This document shows positions 48,597 through 59,713 of a DNA stretch of 64,000 nt, one piece after another. Numbering within the stretch: position 1 is the stretch's first letter; each line of letters begins with the position of its first letter. The stretch spans positions 6,567,428-6,631,427 of the forward strand of contig OY979717.1 of the NCBI GenBank assembly GCA_963855995.1, read 5' to 3'. A program made the translations under genes and the position numbers. Source of the stretch: Muricea muricata (taxonomy: Eukaryota; Cnidaria; Anthozoa; Malacalcyonacea; Plexauridae). The notes below the pieces were generated by a model. That model saw only the letters and a program-made list of their open reading frames with translations, did not search any database and was not told the origin of the DNA.

Positions 48597-51500
48597 TCAA
48601 AGATTAAAAATATATCCTCCTTTTGTTCCTTGTTTCTCATGACGTACTTCAGTCTGTTTTGGTGAACTATAGGGTGATGAATTGCCTGATTCAACATTAT
48701 TACCATTCCTTACATCCTCGCGATCTGAAATAAACAAAACAACAATGTTGACGTGCCAACTTAACACTAATAGTACCTACTTGAAAGATCTATAAGCAAT
48801 GTACAATTATTGGTTGAGGCCGTGCATGATATCAAGAATGATTCAGACGGAGTTATTGTTATCTGGCGAAGTGAATAGCAATAACGAGGTCTGAGTAATT
48901 CTTAATATCATGCGAAGCCTCACCCAATAATTGTTTTAGTATACATTCAAAAATATTGTGGTATAGTGAAAACTCAAACAACTAACAATGCAAAATTATC
49001 TGTATTTAAAATTTCCGTTAGCAAAGATACTCTTGGAAAATGTTTTGATATAAACGTTCAGTGCTTTTGCTATCTTTTTCTGATATTAATACCACTATGT
49101 CGTCTTCGTCAAACGAGGTAAATCTACTGCAAGCTAGCCAATTTGTTGTTGTTTTTATAAAAGATGTCAATGCGTGCTGCCTGGGCACCACGCATTCGTC
49201 ATGTTCTACTTCATCAGCGTCCAATATTTTTTTTTTGATCAAAGTTCGGTCCAAAATAAAAATTATTGGACGCTGACTACGTATTACATGACCATAACTT
49301 GGGATATTGCGAATTGTCCGTGGGCATGTACAGTGTGTCCCCGAAAAGGCTACCCTTTGAAGTCAAGCGCAATCCGCATGTTTGAATTTGAATAGGCCAT
49401 TTTGTGTTATTTTGCTGGAACAAATTCGATTAATTTGCAATTCAAGCATACAAATTCTCTCTGTAGCGGAGAGTCACGCATTCTTGGGCTCCTTTGGGAG
49501 TTAACACGTTGGAATTCGAGTGTGCGGCACTAGCGCTTGTCTTCAAAGGGTAGCTTTATTTTGACTGTATAAGCAAAAAACAAAGCATTATTAATGCTGC
49601 TCAGAGCATTTTAAAAACAAAGTGGAAGAATTTTCATCCTTTGAATTTGATTTGACGACAGCTTATGGTCGTAGTTTTAAACTTGTGTTTATGCCTATAA
49701 GATGCTTATGTTGAACACTTCCCTGTCTTTCTTTGTTTTGTCTTTTGTTTTACTTTGTGCTTGTGTTTATATCGCTAGTGAAGACCAGGCTTTACTGTTT
49801 ATTTAATTTCTACACAATAGCCTCGTTTATAGCGTCATATCAAAAACGTTTCTTTCCCAGCTTGAGCACAATAACAGAAACACAGAAACCATGGCATGGA
49901 AAATAACACAGAAAGTGAAAGTTACACAGAAACCATGGCATGGAAAATAACTATCAAAATCAGAAAATTGGGTAATAAACAGTAATGTGTACTGAATCGA
50001 ATTAAGTTCACGTTCTTTAACTTATTGATTAGTGAAACGAATTCTTTAGGGCCGTATTACTGATGTAAAAAGTTACATAATTAGCGAAGCCAATTGTCAA
50101 TCGAAACAATATTAAAATATTTAATATTTATGTTGTTCTGAAGCCCAATTCAAATTTGCAAACTATGCACAGTTTTTACTTACATATATATTCTCTAACG
50201 TTAAAGAATCTGGCACGTTAACTAAAATCACATACGAACAACGGAATGAGAACATTGAAAAACCATTTTTAGAGATGTCTTATCAATACCATCCGAAATG
50301 ACTGCAGAGAAGGCTATGACAGTGTATGATTCAGAGTGTTCCATGCTAGGCAATCATCAGACGATATATACAGGGGGCTGCCAAAAAAAGATTCCCTATG
50401 AAAAGAGTATTTCTCGTCGGAACTAGTGAATGCAGAATAAAGATTTCCACAATCGTTGCACACAATTTTCGTATTCAAATAGAAGGGGAGATTGTTATTC
50501 TCGTTGAAGTCAGTTTGCACGTCAACTAAGAAACAAGAACAAGAAGAAAGAAGAAGAAGTTCGCTAAGAAGAAGTTAGGAAGAAATCAACAGATCATTGG
50601 CTCCCTTCGTGCTGGATGGAACACAAGACATGCGCAGAAGTATATAGTCTCGACTATTCTTGGTCACAGAAACTCTGTTCGTTAAAGCACAAAAAAGGTA
50701 ATGATTTGGGGATGTTTCTTGTGGAAGGGAGTTGGAGCATTTCATCAAATAAAAGAGATATTAACAAAAAAAATACCGCCAAATATTAATCCGTCAAATG
50801 ACAAGGCCTTTTGCCCCACGACTTCACGCGGGAGATAACTTTTTTCAGCATGGCAATGATTCAAAATATACAGCCCATATTCTGAAAAACTATCTCAGGA
50901 ATCAACAAATTGAAATGCTTGAATGGGCACCGCAAAGTCCTGATTTGAATCCTTTAGAAAATTTGTGTGCAGAGCTAAACAGGAAACTGAATAAACGTAC
51001 TTGCCAAAATGAGGAAGAATTGTTTCAATGTTTGAAACAAGCATCGGAGAATTTCAGCGAAGATTACCTTCATAAACTTGTAGAAAGTATGCCAAGGCGC
51101 TGTCGAAAAGTTATCAAAAGCCCTGCATATACTATAGCCATTAACTTTTGTGTGATTATACCTAATAACATCAGGGAATTGGTGTGAAGTCAGAGTGTTT
51201 TGCTAATAATTAAAAAGGACAAGAACTATGACTTTTATTTGTCCGTTCTATTTAAGGATAGATCTTTTTTTGGCAACCACCTGTATAGAAACAGCTAATT
51301 CAAAAAAGGTTGTCTTTTAAAACATTACACTCTAAGTATGCAAAGTATCACGGGAGTTTAATTTGAGCTGTTTTTGGAATAATGTGTGAGGTCCATTTCT
51401 TGGAGACATGGTAAATATTTTTCTTCGAGTGCAATTTTTTAAAAAATTTCTGCAGTATATATATATATATATATATATATATATATTTAAAAAACACTTT

Positions 51501-59713: not shown

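Follow-up and report, generated by a model that had tools for sequence, protein, structure and literature searches.

This locus raises the question whether a seven-exon gene for a membrane protein with an ephrin-like four-cysteine domain is indeed an ephrin and, if so, what it could do at the cell surface. The gene lies on the minus strand, from 59713 to 48597 of the window, i.e., the whole stretch of 64,000 nucleotides under analysis (C2:6567428-6631427 in a 453-Mb assembly of 74 contigs, in which paralogues were also sought). Its rebuilt exons read as follows:

59604..59713, minus strand: exon 1, start codon, signal-like peptide and first strand with W31 and NP
56667..56899, minus strand: exon 2, first half of the ephrin-like domain with Cys40, Cys42, Cys60 and Cys109
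55614..55730, minus strand: exon 3, Cys122 and the strand with Y150
54124..54246, minus strand: exon 4, Cys171 as the last domain cysteine, and the last strand
52286..52612, minus strand: exon 5, Ser/Thr-rich stalk with Cys202, Cys207 and Cys229
51722..51883, minus strand: exon 6, juxtamembrane Cys315 and Cys319, transmembrane helix by hydropathy, then a Lys-rich stretch
48597..48724, minus strand: exon 7, cytoplasmic tail with two Tyr, C-terminus YIFNL and stop codon

Rebuilding bore out the preliminary description in that the seven exons join without a frame conflict. They encode 399 amino acids with a single, terminal stop codon, and the six introns have phases 2, 1, 1, 1, 1 and 1. Since the model was read from genomic DNA and spans introns that reach 3 kb and contain TA repeats as well as a transposase remnant, the exons could be mis-joined or the gene could be a pseudogene. 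However, internal stops are absent, six of six junctions are GT-AG, and the domain exons of paralogues, with junctions read from sequence, are split alike, so that we consider this alternative extremely improbable. The domain is divided at the same places in three paralogues of this genome, so that the gene model is more than a chance assembly of reading frames.

The transposase remnant, possibly of DDE_3 type, lies within the last intron (window 50765-51187, plus strand; 23.9 bits, below the cut-off). The fourth intron contains what looks by eye like a small foldback element: at ~52765-52890 of the window, a sequence of some tens of bases around 'accactacagtctgtttc' recurs in inverted orientation, with TA repeats on either side. 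The surroundings of the gene contain 370 inverted repeat pairs, and among the 25 listed TA repeats predominate.

The protein layout claimed earlier, from signal peptide to tail, was found again for the domain, the stalk, one transmembrane helix and a short tail; the start is signal-like as judged by eye. The domain carries cysteines at positions 40, 42, 60, 109, 122 and 171. Hydropathy windows of 19 residues exceeded 1.6 only when starting at 315 and at 318-334, which marks residues ~318-350 as the single strongly hydrophobic segment. The protein thus has, by hydropathy, the membrane anchor expected of a transmembrane ephrin, with a signal peptide assigned by eye only. Two lengths given in the preliminary description refer to single exons. 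The stalk of ~110 residues corresponds to exon 5 (109 residues, 36 Ser/Thr, 10 Pro), but the whole span between domain and membrane (179-317) comprises 139 residues, of which 42 are Ser/Thr. Likewise, the 42-residue tail is the share of exon 7 in a cytoplasmic tail of 48 residues (352-399). Folding exon 2 by itself gave a mean pLDDT of 47.2 and was uninformative.

Direct family searches did not name the protein. Pfam returned no family at E≤10, PF00812 included, for the 399-residue product or, separately, for its 158-residue domain. The ephrin assignment of the preliminary description hence found no backing in a search of the full product against PF00812, while its remark that the similarity was low enough for automatic annotation to miss proved correct. 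A PDB sequence search with the product yielded nothing relevant; its sole row, a penicillinase repressor at E 0.18, was taken as a chance match. Prokaryote contigs were scanned with a vertebrate ephrin profile for bacterial ephrins that might serve as bridging sequences, and none of 95 pattern matches was confirmed. However, many cnidarian, sponge and ctenophore ephrins are reported to have required iterated profiles for their detection (PMC6485061), so that a missing PF00812 match alone does not exclude an ephrin.

At least three further genes of this genome share the domain plan, A and B on contig C16 and C on contig C3. Their domains are 36% (A), 40% (B) and 28% (C) identical to that of the query, and exon 2 alone gives 43, 41 and 34%. 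As read from sequence, the junction of exons 1 and 2 is of phase 2 in A and B, with exon 1 ~9 and ~6 kb upstream, and the junctions of exons 2/3 and 3/4 are of phase 1 in all three. The second of these phase-1 introns lies 17 residues ahead of the fourth cysteine in A and C, but 16 ahead of it in B. For C, exon 1 escaped detection, and a last exon was not confidently assigned in any of the three; in A, unlike in the query, stalk and transmembrane helix share one frame. Judged from these junctions, the likeness concerns the exon plan of the domain and not the gene as a whole. C16 may hold a fifth paralogue, to which two weak matches (E 0.038 and 0.14) point.

The paralogues also bear on the Cys40-Cys42 pair, which had been put forward as a notable trait. 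This pair is not kept: A has an equivalent of the first cysteine only, C of the second only, and B has two adjacent cysteines. The cysteines just after the domain vary among the query and the paralogues as well, and it is a guess of ours that an extra bond might link the two regions.

Paralogue B matches PF00812 colinearly over profile positions 7-129 of 140, with 11.3 bits at a cut-off of 25 and an E of 0.33 over 24,736 models, which corresponds to ~1.3e-5 if one model is chosen beforehand. A and C had no Ephrin match in Pfam. Against a model of three ephrin sequences, single-test E values were 0.00011 for B, 0.0034 for the query, 0.004 for C and 0.029 for A. Residue shuffles scored as well in 1 of 2000 cases for B, a clear result, and in 37 of 2000 for the query, which is borderline at 4.2 bits; C (106/2000) and A (343/2000) were not distinguished from their shuffles.

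When the four paralogues were aligned with ephrin-B2, -A1 and -A5 (PDB 2HLE, 3CZU, 1SHW) in hhalign, all four cysteines fell in register. The hhalign probabilities were 0.6-2.5%, with single-comparison P-values of 0.02-0.09 that varied with the settings, and the score on the domain columns exceeded that of 397 of 400 column-shuffled profiles. The same four-paralogue profile had no relevant match in the PDB. The query shares with these three ephrins the W...NP motif, the CP cysteine and the register from the second to the fourth cysteine, at an identity of just 17-18% in the profile alignment. Ephrin cysteines pair C1-C3 and C2-C4. Their counterparts, as assigned from sequence, would be Cys60, Cys109, Cys122 and Cys171, with a spacing of 49-13-49 compared with 27-12-52 in ephrin-B2, 29-12-48 in ephrin-A1 and 28-12-49 in ephrin-A5. 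In all four genes of this genome the stretch between the first and second ephrin cysteine is thus 17-22 residues longer than in the vertebrate proteins.

Intron positions gave a comparison of a different kind, with human EFNB1 as the only ephrin gene used. Splice variants place the end of EFNB1 exon 1 at c.128 (c.128+5; PMC8187391) and that of exon 2 at c.406 (c.406+2 and c.407-2; PMC2901216). A cDNA primer described as covering exons 2-4 (PMC2901216) would reach 3 bases into exon 1 by the numbering used, and was given no weight. Position c.128 falls in codon 43, phase 2, and c.406 in codon 136, phase 1. We take the first of these introns to lie six residues after W37 in W-S-S-L-N-P-K and the second, presumably, at a distance of 17 residues from the downstream C153. 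The EFNB1 numbering used here agrees with the variants P54L, R66X, T111I, T137A, D61G and M158T, as quoted in three papers.

In the gene described here, the first intron interrupts codon 37 in phase 2, six residues past W31 in W-D-H-L-N-P-L, and the third, at the end of exon 3, interrupts codon 154 in phase 1, 17 residues ahead of Cys171. Two of the three domain introns hence share position and phase with EFNB1 introns, while the second (codon 115) corresponds to neither of the two EFNB1 introns compared. If three domain introns were placed at random, both exact coincidences would arise with a chance of ~2.7e-5, or 0.0012 when 3 nt of slack are allowed either way. At these two points the gene accordingly follows EFNB1, with a phase-2 intron after W-x(4)-P-x and a phase-1 intron after the YY strand.

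These coincidences weigh against the view that the domain is a non-ephrin cupredoxin-type domain, or an unrelated extracellular domain whose four cysteines resemble those of ephrins by chance. Such a view would account for the missing profile match of the query and for the low hhalign probability; yet it would have to explain two EFNB1 intron positions together with their phases and the colinear, albeit sub-threshold, match of paralogue B to PF00812, and we find it highly improbable. A copper-binding cupredoxin was set aside, as no His/Cys/Met copper site is seen by eye near Cys171. Since ephrins have themselves been proposed to derive from cupredoxins (PMC6485061), a non-ephrin cupredoxin would in any case shade into an ephrin by descent, unless the introns coincide by accident.

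An ephrin should find Eph receptors in its own genome, and the preliminary description had pointed to their presence as a check. At least 17 matches to the ligand-binding domain Ephrin_lbd (PF01404) at E≤1, 13 of them over the cut-off, were found across the genome. All lie on contig C5 within 15.07-15.49 Mb (15066329-15486748) as a tandem cluster, and they are divergent (38.5 bits at best). In one 10-kb stretch of this cluster, where eight unspliced reading frames were tested, one strand carries in order Ephrin_lbd (38.3 bits), Ephrin_CRD and Ephrin_rec_like (both sub-threshold), EphA2_TM (38.2 bits) and four tyrosine-kinase pieces, of which three exceed the cut-off; fn3 had no match among the eight frames. 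An Eph receptor with ligand-binding, transmembrane and kinase exons is thus present, as had been looked for. A comparison covered ten of the 17 ligand-binding exons, and each of these ten sits in an open frame 194-252 residues long. Of their 45 pairs, 29 are 74-98% identical with dN/dS between 0.24 and 1.08; the remaining 16 fall below 60%, and all of these set one of two exons, L011 or L012, against the rest. A limited literature search returned no report of an octocoral Eph expansion, which is not proof of absence.

Intron positions, the profile match of paralogue B, cysteine spacing and the Eph receptors of the genome together argue for an ephrin, and it is chiefly the introns and the sub-threshold paralogue match by which membership in the family is supported. 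We hence read the locus, known here from genomic sequence, as an intact gene that most probably encodes a divergent single-pass transmembrane ephrin, with a probability of about 0.82. If expressed and folded as an ephrin, with disulphides in the ephrin pattern, the protein would present its four-cysteine domain at the cell surface, borne by a Ser/Thr-rich stalk that is probably O-glycosylated. We infer that the domain would bind Eph receptors on touching cells and thereby elicit forward signalling via the receptor kinase. The short tail, with its tyrosines and a C-terminus of hydrophobic-X-hydrophobic type, could in turn carry reverse signalling.

Binding to Eph receptors is the step in this scheme on which the sequence itself raises doubt. 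The G-H loop, which inserts into the receptor, is part of the segment delimited by the third cysteine and the phase-1 intron. By hand count this segment measures 32 residues in the query, compared with presumably 35 in EFNB1; it has 29 residues in A and C, and in B it reaches 37. With these differences in length, Eph binding is not assured. The longer gap between the first two cysteines and the altered G-H loop segment may both matter. Among the aromatic residues reported as conserved in ephrins, W25, F120, Y126 and Y127 in ephrin-A1 numbering (PMC6485061), W31 and Y150 are kept, whereas F120 and Y126 are, in a hand alignment, replaced by Tyr144 and Ile149. The protein might thus descend from ephrins but no longer bind Eph receptors, and act instead as an adhesion protein, as a decoy or with some other partner. 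To this the shortened loop segment (in the query, A and C, not in B), the aromatic replacements, the 17-22 added residues and the weak family score would all be suited. On the other hand, the gene is intact, and divergence is also seen in the Eph ligand-binding domains that this genome encodes, so that both partners may have changed together. We therefore regard loss of binding as unlikely and retain the reading of a transmembrane ephrin that would still engage Eph receptors.

Cnidarians are already known to have divergent transmembrane ephrins, and the gene reported here adds one more. Iterated profiles uncovered divergent ephrins in cnidarians, sponges and ctenophores, and the same source lists 55 cnidarian ephrins with a transmembrane region and describes ephrins and Ephs as having expanded in lineages of cnidarians and sponges (PMC6485061); another reports that cnidarian ephrins retained their transmembrane region through a large expansion (PMC6993872). 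As described in these texts, cnidarian transmembrane ephrins resemble the gene product in being single-pass proteins with a four-cysteine receptor-binding domain, in their low similarity to vertebrate ephrins and in their expansion. In contrast, some of them end in V-X-V, described as PDZ ligands (PMC6993872), where the present protein ends in FNL. The same study gives YKV as the end of vertebrate ephrin-B. The preliminary description saw no ephrin-B-type C-terminus; FNL fits the hydrophobic-X-hydrophobic pattern of PDZ ligands, as do ~9% of random ends of the same composition. With low-similarity transmembrane ephrins being the cnidarian norm in these two reports, and with the Cys40-Cys42 pair not shared by the paralogues, the gene is less unusual as a membrane-bound ephrin than first proposed, and the suggested relevance to early Eph-ephrin signalling stands only insofar as its source is probably cnidarian.

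With human EFNB1 the gene shares two domain introns, the transmembrane anchor, a short cytoplasmic tail and a hydrophobic-X-hydrophobic end. It differs in that PF00812 does not see it, in ~20 additional residues that separate its first two ephrin cysteines, in the 139-residue stalk with extra cysteines, in having seven exons instead of five and in its tail sequence. A further relative by domain is found in Endozoicomonas bacteria, whose ephrin-domain proteins are described as acquired from corals, and in which a transmembrane anchor was reportedly not detected (PMC6993872). These bacterial ephrin-like proteins differ from the one described here in their origin and, by description, in the anchor, and they have been proposed to engage host ephrin receptors (PMC12491435).

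Our comparison suggests that intron positions can identify ephrins that profile searches miss, and they could thus provide a route to fast-evolving ligands in early-branching animals. We may speculate that, in this octocoral lineage, a rapidly diverging ephrin subfamily and the Eph array, with its 17 or more ligand-binding domains in tandem, expanded in parallel as a variable set for contact recognition, although we hold this to be distinctly unlikely. Such a set, used at tissue boundaries, in self/non-self recognition or in admitting ephrin-bearing bacterial symbionts in place of a single developmental ligand-receptor pair, is an equally doubtful proposal. Should the divergent ephrins prove to be partners of the expanded Eph cluster, the evolution of Eph-ephrin specificity could be examined in this octocoral, and a possible role in colony boundaries or in the uptake of Endozoicomonas would become testable, given that bacterial ephrins are proposed to engage coral receptors (PMC12491435).

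Elsewhere in the window, a copper amine oxidase gene was observed in two adjacent copies on the minus strand (10594-12123, 15419-16375, 31347-32876 and 38910-39968), each with an N2-domain exon, which also contains a hydrophobic stretch, and a catalytic exon. An uninterrupted frame of 329 amino acids (7105-8094, minus strand) includes a complete casein kinase II beta domain (189 bits) and is possibly a retroposed copy. Pieces of LINE-type endonuclease and reverse transcriptase lie at 23252-24121 (minus strand) and 27857-28402 (plus strand).

Contig C74 of the assembly (19,292 bases, of which 10,600 were examined) reads as a mitochondrial genome with an octocoral-like gene order, and it is this contig that points to an octocoral as the probable source of the DNA. 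As read by eye, its first 9,000 bases carry nad6, cob, nad1 and cox1 on one strand and cox2, atp8, atp6 and cox3 on the other. One tRNA, for Met, was found with the bacterial code, and bases 16001-17600 contain, again by eye, a mutS-like reading frame. A mitochondrial mutS together with this type of gene order is a hallmark of octocorals.
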